Below are positions 22,062 to 61,700 of a stretch of DNA of 64,000 nt, piece by piece. This stretch comes from Sternotherus odoratus. Taxonomy: Eukaryota > Chordata > Testudines > Kinosternidae. Position 1 is the stretch's first letter. Each line of letters opens with the position of its first letter. Location of the stretch: the NCBI GenBank assembly GCA_032164245.1, contig JAVMKO010000002.1, positions 183,402,920 to 183,466,919 of the forward strand. The letters run 5' to 3'. The translations under genes were made by a program, and so were the position numbers. A model generated the notes under the pieces. That model ran no database searches and had not been told where the DNA came from. It was given only the letters and a program-made list of their open reading frames with translations.

Positions 22062-22727
22062 CTAAAAATGGGGGGGAAAGTAGAAAAAGAAAAAAAAAAA
22101 AAGACTCAGGACATTTCAAAATGTGCTTAAAGTGTTAAAAATAATTCTCTCTAAAGTGTTAATACATATTTGGCTTCACTTTAGCAAACACTTCACCTTC
22201 ATCAATAATTCACACACTACCATGGACCACATGTTCCCTCCCATTCATGACTGCATAAATACCCAGTTGCAACTATAGTAATTATTGACATGAAAAAGTA
22301 ACATTAGGAACAATATTTACATATTTTAGCTGCCTTTTAATGTGATTTAGAAACAGGAAACAAGAAGCTGCCAACATCCTGTGATAAACCAGTTCTCCAT
22401 ACAGCATAAGTGTCAGTTAGAGACCTACTGGAGCATCCAGTCCATCTTTTACAACATAAGAACAGTGAAAGTAATTCCAGATTAACTTATTTGCATACTA
22501 GGTACTTGCTTTCAAGTATTAAATTTATAAATTGAATATATAATGATTCCACCCTTAAATCTGTCTCAGGCACTCACAACAAAATCATTTTATTTTTCCA
22601 AAATATTTTAATAATTAACAGTTAAATAGCCTAATAACTGTATATATAAAATGATAACTTCAGAAATGTTCTTCATATAATGAACATCCTTTAAAAAACA
22701 ACCACCACCCCCCTAAAAGCCCCTTAC
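22062..22727 (-). other. C1GALT1 intron between coding exons 2 and 3
   Basis: Bounded by donor GTAAGG (22722-22727) and the TTTTTAG acceptor. AT-rich, nothing else recognised. Confidence 0.85.
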
Positions 22728-23395
22728 CTCTATCGCAGGATAATAATTATAATTCCAGTACCAAAATGTTCTAGGCAGATATCCTCTGATTAAGTGATGT
22801 TCTGGCACAAAGGGATGAAAAGTTTCTTTACCACTTGTGTCCCTTGAATCTCCAGCTTCTACATTAATATTCTCCATGCATTTTCCGAGTGCTAGGTCTT
22901 CGATAGAAGAGCTATGAGAACATTTGTTGGTTTTAAATGCATTAACAAATCTCCTTAGTGCTTCTTTGCTCAGTACATATCCTGCTCCTCCACTCATGTA
23001 GCCCTGTTTCACATAAGGCTTAAACCTTCTTCCAAAGTAGATTGGTTGTTCGGGATTGTATTTTGAAAGAAGCCATCTCAAGTTGTCCAGTATAACGTAC
23101 GTATCATCATCTGCTTTCATAAACCAATCAGCATCGTCAAAATAATGGTCATGTACATACTGAAAGGCTTTAATAGTTTTCCAGTAGAGTTGGTCCCTGC
23201 CTTCTTTGGCTTCTAGTCCCACAGTTGGAAAGTCTTTATTCTCCTCAGAGCTCATAAATAGTATTTTATTGCAACGCTGGGCCCAAGTAGCCTTAACATG
23301 CTTTGCTTTTTTCTCTAGATTCTGAGGCCCAGTCATCACCCAACAAAGTATTTTCACCTTCTGATACAGTCCTTCTGCAATATTTTTGTTCTCAT
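22728..23395 (-). CDS. C1GALT1: C1GALT1 coding exon 2 (catalytic domain)
   Basis: A 668-bp exon that encodes residues 75-297 and carries the glycosyltransferase family 31 catalytic domain. It starts after CTGTCCTTTAG with two bases completing an Asp codon from exon 1. Visible landmarks are [18 protein letters not shown], then [16 protein letters not shown], the metal- and UDP-binding DDD motif ([14 protein letters not shown], about residues 170-172), [20 protein letters not shown] and EDLALGKCM. An upstream in-frame ATG at 23423 lies in the intron and is not the start. No stops or frameshifts. The enzyme needs the chaperone Cosmc for folding in vertebrates. Confidence 0.97.
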
Positions 23396-23604
23396 CTAAA
23401 GGACAGAGGGGAAGAAATTCCATGATATGTTAGTGTGTTTGCTAAGGAGTAACACAAATGGAAAAGTACAATAGAAGAGATGTAGCAATGCATAAGAAAA
23501 AATAAGTCTTGTTAGTCATTAAGTACAGAGAGATGAATGGGAAGAAGTCCAGTATATATGTGCATCAGATGAGGCTTTTGTTTTGGACAACTTTTTTTCT
23601 GTCA

Positions 23605-28002: not shown

Positions 28003-31000
28003 CTACTGTTTTTTTATAATTAACTCCCTAAAATTACAAAAATGGGTGTAATAAAGCTGAATTTCATTATGTGATGAATTGTCAATAAATGTTATTAGAT
28101 CGTCGAGATGTGATCTAATCACTGATAACTTTATTTTTGGGTGTGTTGTTTCTTCTTCCTCATTATCTTCACTCCCATCCTCATCTTCCAAGGTCATTAC
28201 CTCATCTGCTATTTCACTTTCACTCATGATGGGATACCCAGGGTCACCATCTTCTTCTAACCCCTGTAAAACATCTTCCTCAGCTACTTCTTCTCCACCA
28301 ATATTCTGTATTGTCCTACAGTAATCAGTAACCTCTAGCCCTTCTAAATCCAAGTCTGCATCTTCATTGTCAAGCAAATTCTTCCAACCATTTTCCAATG
28401 TTTGCACTTTCACTTCTTTCCATGCTGCAGCAAAATTAAAAATTGCCGATTTTAAACTGTAGCTCTAAGTTTTGTAAGGTACGCTGTCCTCTTGTATCTT
28501 CTTCATTATCTTCATCCTGCAATATAACCATTACTTCCTCTAAAAACTTTTTGCGGTATATTCGTTTGGTTGCCAGAATTATCCCCTGGTCCATGGGCTG
28601 GATAAGTGATGTTGTATTTTTTGGCAAACACATACATTTAAATTTGCCATCTTCTGAACATAAAATATTTTCGGATGGATGAGCAGGAGCGTTGTCTAAA
28701 AGCAATAAACATTTCACATCTTCCGGTGGTATTCCAAGCTCTTCGCCTTGAAATTTCCTGACTGCAGGTACAAAGTCTTCGAAAAACCAAACTTGGAAAA
28801 TCTTTGAGGTGAACCAGGCCTTTGTAGAGTTATAGTACAAAACGGGCAGATGATCCATTATATTTTTTAAAAACTCTAGGTTTACGAGATTTGCCAACAA
28901 TTACAGGTGTCAGTTTATGCGATCCATTGGCGTTGGCACAAAGCAGCGCCGAGATCCTGTCTTTGCTGATTTTTCTTCCAGGTGTCTATTTTTCATATTT
29001 GGAGGCTTGTGTGTTTTCAGGCAGAGAACGCCAGAACAAACCAGTTTCGTCAGCATTGTAAATCTGAGACCTTAATAGCATTTAGTTATTTATACGTTCT
29101 ATTAATTTTTGCCTAAATGGTTCAATATCTTCTGATACCAGGCAGCTCCGTGTTTGTGGGAGCCAGGGCACAGTTTGATACCAGTCCGCTCTGTGTTTTT
29201 GGGGAACCAGGGCACAGTATCCAGCCTGCCTCATGAAAGACACTCCCCGCCCAGTCTCTGTTTGAACCAAAACTGATCAGAGAAAAGGTCTGCAGAGAAC
29301 AATGAAGGGTATTGGGAGACACGCCTGGACCCCTCCTAACAAGGTGACAAGAATAAGACATCTCGATTAGCATAAGGAATGGAGAACTGAGACCACTCCC
29401 CATGCCTCATCTGCATGAAAGATGGACAGGAATTAGCATGAAGAATGAAGAAAAGAGAACCACACTGAACTCTGGGACCTAAAAAGCAGGGATGCACTGC
29501 ATTCTGGGAATCCCTGCTCCAAATGCTAATGAACCCAGCTCAGCAATTATCAGACCAATTCTAGTAATAGATCTTTGATTGCTATCCCAAAATACTGAAG
29601 CAACCTGGTTACATTGTGAGCTCCCTGAAGAAAACACCTCCCATAGCCAAGAGTGATCAGCTCCTATTGTCTATCCTAAAGAAAACCCTTGAATCCCCAG
29701 TTTACTCCTAAACAAATCTTTGTTCTCCCTTGAACCTTTGTATTTTCTCTATAAAACCCCCTACCTGTGCCCCAGTCAGTGTTCTCATGCAAAGACCCAA
29801 ACTCTGCACCAGTTCCACTCCATCATCACCTAACTGATCATGCTGGGGGCTCTGCCAGTCTCCTACCTTCAGGACCCTGAGCGGCTACCATCACCTGGGA
29901 ACCCCGACTAATTCATGCTGCAGGAGTGGTGAGATCCCCTTTTCTCTCTCTCTCTCTCCGTTTTCCTTCCTGTCTCAGGAATTACCCTTTAATAATGGAT
30001 GCTATGCTGGTTTAGGCTCTCTTTGTCTGGTTATCATTATTATTCAATAAATAACCCCTTATGGTGAAGTTGGTTGTTTCTCTCTCACTCTCTGAATGTT
30101 ACTCATTTGTGTCTGTGGCTTCCCCCCATTTACTCCTCAGCAACGCTTCTTTTACCTCAGCTAAAAGATCCCTGTGGTGCCCAAAGATACTGTGGGGTTT
30201 GCTCATCAAGTTGGTTACTGTAAAAGTGGGATAGGGACGTGTTCAACTTGGGGCACATAAGGGGGGGTGGGGGGGCAGCGGAGAGTGCTGCTCAACTCAG
30301 CCCATTGAGACCAGGAGCACATAAGGGGATCAGCTTGAGAGTGCTGTTTAACCCAGCTCACTGAGCACAGGGACACATAAGGGGATCAGCTGGAAAGTGC
30401 CAATTGACCCAGTCCGCTCAGACTTGCTCTATTAGTGTGTGTGCATGTTCATCTAGTTCTAGGGCTGGAGGACCCCAGTCCCAGGGAACCTAGCAGGATA
30501 GCTCCACTGGGAGGGGACTTGCAGAAGGAAGGAGTAGAGCTCCATATGAACACAAGTGACATAAGCAGCACATTAATAGAATTACAGAACTACGCCCCCC
30601 CCCCCCCAGAAGAGTAACCCGAATAAATGAGCATAGTAAATCCCAAAGTAACAGGCACATTTGGTAACACTTCTGTTGGAGCACTTGAAGCTTCGCCGTA
30701 AATTCATTTGTTCATAAGTCCGTGCCTTTTGCGAAAGCGCCAAAGCCATCCATCACTTGCTTTGAATGGTGTGTTCCTATGATTTGCTAATTTAATTGCT
30801 GCAGATTTCAATTCAACTGCCCGAACTGGAACGCCACAAGAACGTTGTTGTGCGTACCACCTCAACAATGCTTCTTCAACTGAAGTTTCACGTGCCAATT
30901 TCATATGTTTTCTGGGATTGGTGTTTTCACCTACATCACATAGTAACGTAATTTTTTTTATTTTGTCTTTGTTTTTTTTAATGTCCGAAACAGTTTGCTT

Positions 31001-31111
31001 TTTTATGCCATATTGCTCACATATACGAGACACAGCCACTCCCGACTCCAACTTTTGTATGACTTCTAATTTTTGATTTAGCGTTAAATTAACTCTTTTC
31101 CGTTTCTCCAT
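28003..31111 (-). pseudogene. Tigger/jerky-like transposase pseudogene
   Basis: The ATG is at 31111. The first part (31111-30704) has an N-terminal helix-turn-helix (LNQKLEVIQKLESGVAVS, ICEQYGIKKQTVSDIKK) followed by a CENP-B type DNA-binding domain (DGWLWRFRKRHGL). After the LTR insertion the frame resumes near 29128. The catalytic region shows IYNADETGLFW (about 29050), LLLDNAPAHP (about 28690) and PMDQGII (about 28585), so all three catalytic Asp residues remain. Stops near 30702, 29081 and 28988 and frame changes near 28900 and 28430 make it non-functional. The acidic C-terminus is at 28413-28003. It could be mistaken for a host TIGD/JRK gene. Confidence 0.88.
29133..30669 (+). mobile_element. 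solo-type LTR inserted in the Tigger transposase
   Basis: Begins TGATACCAGG and ends TTTGGTAACA, flanked by the 4-bp duplication CTTC (29129-29132 and 30670-30673). A TATA box (TATAAAACCCCC, about 29751) and AATAAA (about 30046) sit in order on the + strand. Two imperfect 43-bp repeats lie at the left end and three copies of a roughly 65-bp unit with ACATAAGGGGATCAGC at 30240-30420. No retroviral genes are present. At 1537 bp it is long for a solo LTR. Confidence 0.85.
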
Positions 31112-31807: not shown

Positions 31808-32681
31808 CCGTATTTTCCGGCGTATAGGACGACTGGGCGTATAAGACGACCCCCAACTTTTCCAGTAAAATATAGAGAAAAGCCGCCGGATTACCAAAAA
31901 AAAAAAAAACCCACACACAAAAAGCGCGTGTGCCCCGCTCTCCCGTCCCCGCCGCGGGCTGCTGGGAGCGCCCCGCTCTCCCGTCCCCGCCGCGGGCGGG
32001 CGGGCGGGCTGCTGGGAGCGCCCCGCTCTCCCGTCCCCGCCGCGGGCGGGCGGGCTGCTGGGAGCGCCCCGCTCTCCCGTCCCCGCCGCGGGCGGGCGGG
32101 CTGCTGGGAGCGCCCCGCTCTCCCGTCCCCGCCGCGGGGGGGCTGCCGGCTGGGCTGCTGGGAGCGCCCCGCTCTCCCGTCCCCGCCGCGGGGGGGCGGG
32201 CGGGCGGGCTGCTGGGAGCGCCCCGCTCTCCCGTCCCCGCCGCGGGCGGGCGGGCGGGCTGCTGGGAGCGCCCCGCTCTCCCGTCCCCGCCGCGGGCGGG
32301 CGGGCGGGCTGCTGGGAGCGCCCCGCTCTCCCGTCCCCGCCGCGGGCGGGCGGGCGGGCTGCTGGGAGCGCCCCGCTCTCCCGTCCCCGCCGCGGGCGGG
32401 CGGGCGGGCTGCTGGGAGCGCCCCGCTCTCCCGTCCCCGCCGCGGGCGGGCGGGCGGGCTGCTGGGAGCGCCCCGCTCTCCCATCCCCGCCGCGGGCGGG
32501 CGGGCTGCTGGGAGCGCCCCGCTCTCCCGTCCCCGCCGCGGGGGGGCTGCCGGCTGATTCCCAGATTCTCTAGTCCGGCGGCACCCGCCCTATAAAACGA
32601 CACCCGGCGTATAAGACGATCCCCAACTTTTGAGACGATTTTCCTGGCTTAAAAAGTCGTCTTATACGCCGGAAAATACGG
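31808..32681. mobile_element. TA-flanked DNA element with a 50-bp GC-rich minisatellite
   Basis: Inverted ends CCGTATTTTCCGGCGTATA and TATACGCCGGAAAATACGG with TA at 31806-31807 and 32682-32683. The core (31935-32550) is about 12 copies of a 46-54 bp unit containing GGAGCGCCCCGCTCTCCCGT. Open frames on both strands are repeat artefacts. It starts only 25 bp after the end of the Tigger element. Confidence 0.9.
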
Positions 32682-59378: not shown

Positions 59379-60257
59379 CCTCGAGAGACTCCACGGAAAG
59401 GGCAGGGAAAGACGAGCAGCGGGAGCACAAAACACAAAAACAACCGCCACACACACACAAGAGATCTTGTCAAACTTGACACAAATGGCAACAACAAAAC
59501 AACACAAATATTCGAAGTTAACACTAGCTCTCCCCTTCCCCCGTCGCTTCTTAGATGACTGCAACTACTGCTTCTGTCTTGGAGCAGTCCATCAGACACT
59601 GGCCAGGCACGGGGGGGGGGCGGGGGGGAGAGTGGCCTCCGTGATCCCTGTTGCTTCGCTTTGCACCTGTGAAAGGAGGCAAACAAGCACAGATTACAAA
59701 GCGGTCTCTGCCTCCCACGTGGGGGGAGGCAGCCGCCTGGTTCCCATAGGCCACAGCATCCAGCATCTCATCTTTGCTGTACCCATCCAGGGAGTCAAGG
59801 GTTAACTCTACAAACAAGAAGACAAACAAAAACAAGGCGGGCCATCGGCAGCACATCCCGGCGTTGGCCAGCCAGAGGTGTGCGGTCGTGCCCACATCCA
59901 GAGAGCCTGGGCCCGGACTCAACAATTGGACCAGGTCCTCTTCCACGGTGTCCATCTCGTCTGGAAACTGATGTACTTGCATTCACACACCGCTCGGGCC
60001 CTGCCAGGCTGACTCTTGGCACGGACCATGTAAGCCAGGGCGAGACTCTGGCCCTGTGCCTCCATGGGGTGCCCCTCCGTCTGCATCTTGGCGTTTGCCC
60101 ACGTGGATTCCAACTGCCGGAGGATGGAAGCCAGTTCACCCACACGCCTGTCTGCTGCCAGGGCTTGCCCAAGGTGTGGCGATTCATTCACACCCTCCCC
60201 GCCAACTGTTAGACACAGGAAACACTGCAAGAACATCACAAAAACATTTGGTTAGAC

Positions 60258-60761
60258 CAGTGCTTCTCAATTTTTTTCTGTCGTGCCCCCCCTAGGAAGA
60301 AGAAAACATTTCGCGCCCCCCCGCTCCTCTCCGCCCCTCGCCGGCGCCGCCCCTGCCGGGCGCCAGCCTATATCTAGGGCGCAGCGGCCCGGCGCGCCCG
60401 GCCAGGATGGCAGGCGGGAGGCGGGGGCGCCTCGCCCGGGGGATGCGCGCCCGGCCGGCCGGTGACTGAGCGCGGCTCTGCGCCGGGCCGTGCGCTGCGC
60501 GGGGCCCGCGGGCGGGCTGGTGGGGCGATGCTGCCGTGGCGGCGGAGCCGCGGCAGCCCAGCAAGCCGCAGGGCTACGCGGTGAGGCTGCGCCGCGCCGC
60601 GCCGCGCTCGGCTCGCTGGCCCGCGCCTGCCCCGAGCGCGCGCTGCCCCGCGTGGGCAGCATGTTCCACTCCAAGCGGCGCATGGCGCACGTCAAACGAG
60701 CCCCCCTTTACGGAGCCTCGCGCCCCCCCGGGGGGCGCGCCCCACTATTTGAGAAACACTG
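60258..60761. mobile_element. hAT element, 504 bp, carrying a gene fragment
   Basis: Ends CAGTGCTTCTCAA and TTGAGAAACACTG are inverted repeats with one mismatch. The perfect 8-bp duplication GGTTAGAC flanks it (60250-60257, 60762-60769). The core (about 60300-60745) is extremely GC-rich and CpG-dense, unlike the ends, and contains the FAM43A-like segment. Confidence 0.95.
60528..60712 (+). pseudogene. FAM43A: captured FAM43A N-terminal coding fragment inside the hAT element
   Basis: Starting at an ATG (60528-60530), three frames in order give MLPW, then PRQPSKPQGYAVRL, then SLARACPERALPRVGSMF followed by HSKR, and finally SNEPPFT. These match, in the same order, the start of vertebrate FAM43A as I remember it. 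At least two frame changes and a short deletion after MLPW separate the blocks, so it encodes no protein. FAM43A coding sequence is intronless and GC-rich. The sequence before the ATG (60300-60527) may be its 5' UTR or promoter. FAM43B lacks the SKP-GYAV and SLARACPE blocks. Confidence 0.72.
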
Positions 60762-61004
60762 GGTTAGACAGTGCCAGGAGGCCATCTGGGGGCGGTCCTC
60801 CTGGTCTGGCAACATCACAACCCAGCCTTTTCTCGTGGCAAGGATGGTCTCGGCTTTGGCTTCCCTCCCGGGATGGATCTACCAGACATCGGCCAGGGGG
60901 AACGCTTTCCGAGGTCGCCGTCTCTTCGCCTTGCACCTGTAATAGGGGGGAAGAGTAGACACAGATTACAAAAAACAACCCCCGCCTCCCACTGGAAGGA
61001 AGTG

Positions 61005-61700
61005 TCAGTCTGGTTCCCACAGCACTGGGTGTTTCATCTCTGCTGTGCCAGTACGGGGGTAAAAGGTCAGGCCCTCCATCCGGGAGGGCAGGAAAAACAA
61101 GATGGGTGGCTGGCAATGTCCTGTGGCGTGAGCCGGCCAGTGGTGTGTGGTCGCACCTGCGTCCAGAGCACCGGGCTCGGGCGCAACAAGGCGGACCTGA
61201 TTCTGCGTGGTGTCCAGCTCCCCTGGCACCTGCTGTAACCGCATGCACAAGCGGACCGATGGCGGGATCTGCAGGGCCAAACGTTGGTACGAAGTATGTG
61301 GGCCCACAAAACAGTTATTCAACAACCACACTGCTCTCTTAAGAACACCAGACCACCCTCTCAAAGTCATAGAAGGTGTCAACTGCCTGATTTGGTCTCT
61401 GCACAGGCCATTCATGTACTCAATCAAACCACTCACTGTGGGGGAATATGGAAGGTGGTAAAGCCACTCGATGTTGGCATCTGCGGCCCAATCCCGCACA
61501 CTCTGGGTGGTGGAGTGGGTGCCCTGGTCACTCTGGAGACACCGCGGGGCACCATACCGCTGTATCAGGCGGTCAAGGGCCATCACAGTAGTGGCAGCGC
61601 TGACAGAGGCACTGGGTGCCACAAAGCCACACCCCAGATGGGGCGGTCAGCGAGCTGCCAGTTCTTGGCCTCCCATGTCGCTATCCATGTTCACAGCCTC
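61005..61700 (-). pseudogene. retroviral integrase remnant
   Basis: The - strand frame has the integrase core landmarks LQSDQGTHS (catalytic Asp), LPYSPTVSGLIEYMN (catalytic Glu) and a Trp-rich C-terminal stretch. The N-terminal zinc-binding part is not intact. Degenerate and non-functional. Confidence 0.8.

Follow-up and report, generated by a model that had tools for sequence, protein, structure and literature searches.

How did the start of a host gene come to lie inside a short DNA transposon? The question is raised by one small element in a 64,000-nucleotide stretch of Sternotherus odoratus DNA (the window, whose first letter is position 1 below). The element is of hAT type, non-autonomous and 504 bp long (60258–60761), and its ends, CAGTGCTTCTCAA and TTGAGAAACACTG, are complementary at 12 of 13 bases. 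Direct reading gives a perfect 8-bp target-site duplication (TSD), GGTTAGAC, on both sides (60250–60257 and 60762–60769). A scan for end pairs with at most two mismatches per end, less than 3 kb apart and flanked by a perfect 8-bp duplication returned this pair as the only one in the whole window, and none in 20 shuffled windows. The first-pass annotation had taken the limits as certain from the inverted ends and the perfect duplication, and these results uphold it. Neither the end-pair scan nor the other window searches found further copies of the element within the window. Its parts and its neighbour are as follows.

60250–60257, no strand: left TSD GGTTAGAC, by direct reading; fits nnnTAnnn
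60258–60270, plus strand: left terminal inverted repeat (TIR) CAGTGCTTCTCAA, 12 of whose 13 bases pair with the right end
60258–60323, plus strand: left hAT arm (GC 53%), from the TIR to the end of the first 13-bp repeat copy, a putative inner limit
60311–60323, plus strand: left copy of the 13-bp direct repeat TCGCGCCCCCCCG, bounding the left arm on its inner side (repeat search)
60324–60527, plus strand: 204 bp, GC-rich (84%) and CpG-rich, ahead of the FAM43A ATG; candidate 5′ UTR/promoter from composition and position
60528–60693, plus strand: captured FAM43A coding start, codons 1–4 and about 12–62 (frames, protein search, frameshift alignment, tblastn, shuffles)
60694–60712, plus strand: possible extra FAM43A homology (SNEPPFT) or hAT right arm; weak
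60718–60730, plus strand: right copy of TCGCGCCCCCCCG, bounding the right arm on its inner side (repeat search)
60718–60761, plus strand: right hAT arm with a putative inner limit and the palindrome CGCGCCCCCCCGGGGGGCGCG (sequence reading, repeat search)
60749–60761, minus strand: right TIR (complementarity and pair scan)
60762–60769, no strand: right TSD GGTTAGAC, by direct reading
61005–61622, minus strand: integrase-like open frame that marks an endogenous-retrovirus-like tract next to the element (PF00665, E 1.6e-6)

The PF00665 match in this last feature scores 28.7 bits, under the curated cut-off of 32.6. The element sits between two copies of a diverged direct duplication formed by its flanks (59638–59987 and 60908–61249; 66% over 358 aligned columns, E 2.8e-14). 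Elsewhere in the window, an open frame at 22713–23423 on the minus strand matches Fringe and Galactosyl_T and presumably resembles C1GALT1. Two transposase remnants, 28436–28900 and 30704–31111, both on the minus strand, carry DDE_1 and CENP-B/Tc5-type DNA-binding domains, and we take them to be Tigger-like. No RNA family reached its gathering score in the window.

Both marks of a hAT element were found at 60258–60761: the 8-bp TSD, and short TIRs (13 bp with 12 matching, in a superfamily range given as 5–27 bp; PMC3517528). All six frames of the element lack a transposase and, as it is moreover only 504 bp long, one would have to be supplied in trans. The TSD, GGT-TA-GAC, fits the consensus nnnTAnnn described for the Buster group (PMC3517528, PMC3499496), a fit that comes from a single TSD whose central TA has a chance of about 1/16. 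The element thus shares the nnnTAnnn form of 8-bp TSD with Buster hATs such as TcBuster and Mar, but has no transposase, and the Mar ends, CAG(G/A)GGTAGGC, are unlike CAGTGCTTCTCAA and TTGAGAAACACTG (PMC3499496, PMC3517528). At the other end of the window, CATCGGTTCTCAA (2133–2145) and TTGAGAACCACTG (2272–2284) are complementary by eye at 11 of 13 bases, and the region 2133–2284 may be what is left of a decayed hAT-like element about 150 bp long; inspection by eye showed no matching 8-bp duplication beside the two ends, and the pair scan did not report them.

The core of the element carries a broken start of the FAM43A coding sequence, distributed over three frames. In the six-frame reading, words of FAM43A follow one another in order, with MLPW in frame 0, SKPQGYAV in frame 2, SLARACPERALPRVGSMF in frame 1 and SNEPPFT in frame 2, the third-frame piece also being read as SLARACPERALPRVGSMFHSKRRM. 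MLPW begins at 60528, about codons 12–62 occupy 60536–60693, and one frame change falls near 60584–60600. A protein search with SLARACPERALPRVGSMFHSKRRM gave two matches at E ≤ 10 among 33 candidates, both of them FAM43A proteins from side-necked turtles: Emydura macquarii (E 2.4e-6) and Pelusios castaneus (E 2.7e-5). When residues 1–90 of Emydura FAM43A were aligned to the element with frameshifts allowed, the score was 184 across about codons 12–71, again with one frame change. The corresponding scores were 40 on average and 57 at most for 60 dinucleotide shuffles, 35 for the reverse strand, and 27–48 for six further GC-rich parts of the window read on both strands. Furthermore, when three FAM43A proteins were compared by tblastn with the whole window under default filters, the element was the sole matching place (Emys, E 4e-12; the loris Nycticebus, E 5e-10; Emydura, just 0.07); with the filters off and the element alone as target, Emydura FAM43A reached E 2e-15.

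The two edges of the piece differ in how well they are defined. At the start, MLPW arose in none of 20000 shuffles of the stretch preceding the FAM43A homology, and it stands 8 nt ahead of codon 12 in the element as against 33 nt in the gene; hence about 25 nt are missing. The end is uncertain, the homology appearing secure to about 60693. Beyond that point the score of SNEPPFT was equalled by 224 of 3000 shuffles of 60691–60761 and by 58 of 3000 of 60691–60717, so that SNEPPFT is weak as FAM43A and may instead form part of the right hAT arm. The ordered match across three frames proposed in the first-pass annotation therefore stands for MLPW, and for SKPQGYAV and SLARACPERALPRVGSMF (184 against a maximum of 57), whereas its last word, SNEPPFT, is doubtful. 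In FAM43A of Emydura, as in that of Emys, PID_2 begins at residue 68, so the secure homology ends shortly ahead of this domain; scans of two frame readings taken from the core matched neither PID_2 nor any other Pfam domain.

The affinity of the fragment was assessed against a larger set. This search yielded 348 proteins at E ≤ 1e-40 out of 7994 scored candidates; 120 of the 348, together with Pelusios, made up the 121 FAM43A-like proteins compared. Among the 45 best-ranked of these 121, Emydura was closest to the 49-residue fragment with 41 identical residues; the sea turtle Eretmochelys came second with 38, and Pelusios and three more turtles had 37 each. The ranks after these turtles had 34–35. 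A tree built from 18 selected proteins and the fragment placed the latter with six turtles; support was 85/90, under the tool's strict mark, and the position of the fragment inside this group had no resolution. The Q in PQGY and RRAA are common to the fragment and Emydura, PER is common to the fragment and both side-necked turtles, and AVRL is as in other turtles. On this identity ranking, the turtle grouping and the residues in common with side-necked turtles, the piece likely came from a side-necked turtle lineage, the branch being uncertain. A turtle source for the captured start, as the first-pass annotation had it, agrees with the ranking of the 121 proteins, the tree, tblastn and the protein search alike.

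The element is richer in GC than its surroundings, at 76% against 45% for the window, with a CpG observed/expected ratio of 1.03 against 0.39. GC content is 84% in 60324–60527 and 77% in 60528–60712. By composition and position, the 204 bp ahead of the ATG may represent the 5′ UTR and promoter of FAM43A. Three GC-box words (either strand) and no TATAAA were found in the element, and for this reason we do not press a reading of 60324–60527 from promoter motifs. Elsewhere, at 31954–32547, a GC-rich unit of 50 bp occurs 12 times in an array, within a stretch whose CpG ratio is about 0.9.

The junctions of the filler bear on how it was acquired. A 13-mer common to the first 80 and last 60 bases of the element, as TCGCGCCCCCCCG is, was seen in none of 5000 mononucleotide shuffles. 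Before capture, the hAT element would have been about 97 bp long, its two arms having one copy of TCGCGCCCCCCCG in common; a filler of about 394 bp would then have been put in at TCGCGCCCCCCCG, doubling the 13-mer. The repeat may also predate the capture, as repeated motifs are possible in hAT arms and shuffles are no control for that. A point for template switching is that the two copies lie at the inner ends of the putative arms, and 190 of the 281 gene-capturing TIR elements (Pack-TIRs) examined in a survey of animal genomes had microhomology at one or both breakpoints (PMC8277862).

That survey distinguishes two routes to such elements. Gap filling in a resident element accounts for most of the single-copy cases, whereas multicopy ones are put down to fork switching with subsequent transposition (PMC8277862). 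With moderate confidence we favour a new Pack-hAT in which the FAM43A start was gained by template switching inside a short hAT element and was then moved as a unit to the present site. Template switching during repair or replication would have supplied the filler, and after capture the whole element would have moved into the endogenous-retrovirus-like tract, probably by means of a Buster-type transposase acting in trans. This order of events is favoured because FAM43A is absent elsewhere in the window, because the filler is very GC-rich, and because a perfect TSD accompanies a diverged piece. The first point comes from tblastn, which covered 60 kb on the left of the element but only 3.2 kb on its right and found no parent gene there, while 160 of 281 Pack-TIRs sit within 15 kb of their parent (PMC8277862). 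On the second, the authors of the survey describe GC-rich filler in multicopy Pack-TIRs but not in single-copy ones, with just four multicopy cases known (PMC8277862). As to the third, a perfect TSD around a diverged, frame-broken fragment suggests that the capture is older than the present insertion, the divergence from Emydura being due in part to the use of another species' gene as reference and hence no measure of the age of capture. The CpG ratio near 1 suggests youth or absent methylation rather than age; it speaks against great age, and so weakens the reading of an old capture.

Against movement stands the single copy seen in the window scans and in a limited protein search. In the latter, a six-frame composite of 60535–60714, used to look for copies hidden in annotated proteins, matched Emydura FAM43A alone, the search being a weak one, with 7987 scored candidates of about 198–630 aa. 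The core and the arms, searched as exact patterns, had no match in viral_contigs, nor did the exact right-arm pattern in genome_contigs, and both results say little, the collections being non-vertebrate; a FAM43A pattern matched three stretches of viral_contigs, likewise a non-vertebrate collection, none of which encodes a relative.

The same single copy lends something to another account, in which a resident hAT element in the tract broke, was repaired with FAM43A filler and has likely never moved since. Gap filling of this kind is the usual route for animal single-copy Pack-TIRs (PMC8277862), and we regard it as possible but rather unlikely here: the parental gene is absent from the window, the very GC-rich filler suits the multicopy class (PMC8277862), and the perfect TSD is found alongside diverged filler.

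Very improbable, in our estimation, is a processed, RNA-derived copy of FAM43A that fell into, or was captured by, a hAT element. FAM43A is an intronless gene, so that DNA and RNA sources would look alike here, and to this extent the proposal fits. Retrocopies, however, are usually 5′-truncated, and the piece in the element is the opposite, a 5′ end without a 3′ end or poly(A); around it, moreover, there is no insertion duplication beyond the 13-bp C-rich repeat. A shade less probable again is a composite element, in which two hAT ends flanking the FAM43A start in an ancestor moved jointly with the interior. This would likewise leave a gene piece between two hAT arms, but it requires a hAT end within the FAM43A coding exon, and both arms fit a single small element with a common 13-mer. 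Finally, a random GC-rich origin of the core, for which its GC content of 77–84% might speak, was rejected, as the shuffles and the other GC-rich window stretches fall far below 184 (at most 57 in 60 shuffles and 48 in six stretches) and the database match has E 2.4e-6; chance likeness to FAM43A is practically negligible.

The element has counterparts among known systems. In the survey, 55 of 100 animal genomes together contained 370 Pack-TIRs, and hAT elements made up 208 of these (PMC8277862). The first-pass annotation thus overstated how seldom captures of this kind have been described in vertebrate hATs, and the FAM43A element is a new case of a capture type already known in animals. Its internal sequence between the putative arms, about 394 bp, lies within the 100–5000 bp used to define Pack-TIRs, and it has 13-bp ends; on each flank the definition asks for at least 10 bp of the ends of a consensus element, to which these ends may correspond (PMC8277862). 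Like other animal Pack-TIRs, it has a gene piece between the ends of one TIR element and a short breakpoint repeat; whereas the survey required a unique parent with at least 90% DNA identity, the present match rests on FAM43A proteins of other species (PMC8277862).

The multicopy cases include frog and alligator (PMC8277862). The closest parallel is Pack-hAT-N8_XT of the western clawed frog, also a hAT element, whose host-gene cargo is a 5′ part of CAPSL, 291 bp from its 5′ UTR, and which spread this captured 5′ UTR to three chromosomes; the frog copies have distinct TSDs, whereas one copy of the turtle element was seen, and its gene is FAM43A, coding sequence included (PMC8277862). Plant Pack-MULEs similarly hold GC-rich gene fragments in a DNA transposon, but belong to another superfamily and are oftener multicopy (481 of 1337 in rice; PMC8277862). 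In Caenorhabditis elegans, transduplication by Turmoil-1 also placed protein-coding pieces in an animal DNA transposon, yet there they lie within the inverted repeats, and both element and animal differ (PMC2572040). Our search of the open-licence literature found neither FAM43A capture by a transposon nor a turtle Pack-TIR; turtles are unnamed in the main text of the survey, and its figures or supplementary species lists may include turtle cases (PMC8277862).

The element would encode nothing useful, the piece being frame-broken and ending before the PID domain; any effect would therefore stem from its CpG-rich DNA. Capture of gene pieces by animal DNA transposons is known and thinly sampled, and a single frame-broken fragment is by itself a modest find. 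With limits known exactly, a source gene that can be named and a cargo that is a candidate CpG island, the element can nevertheless serve as a clean test case for the spread of promoter-like DNA by hAT elements in vertebrates. That a dispersed turtle Pack-hAT family spreads the CpG island of FAM43A genome-wide, together with its start codon and upstream promoter, seems doubtful to us; were it so, unmethylated promoter-like islands would have been seeded at new sites, one of them inside an endogenous retrovirus.
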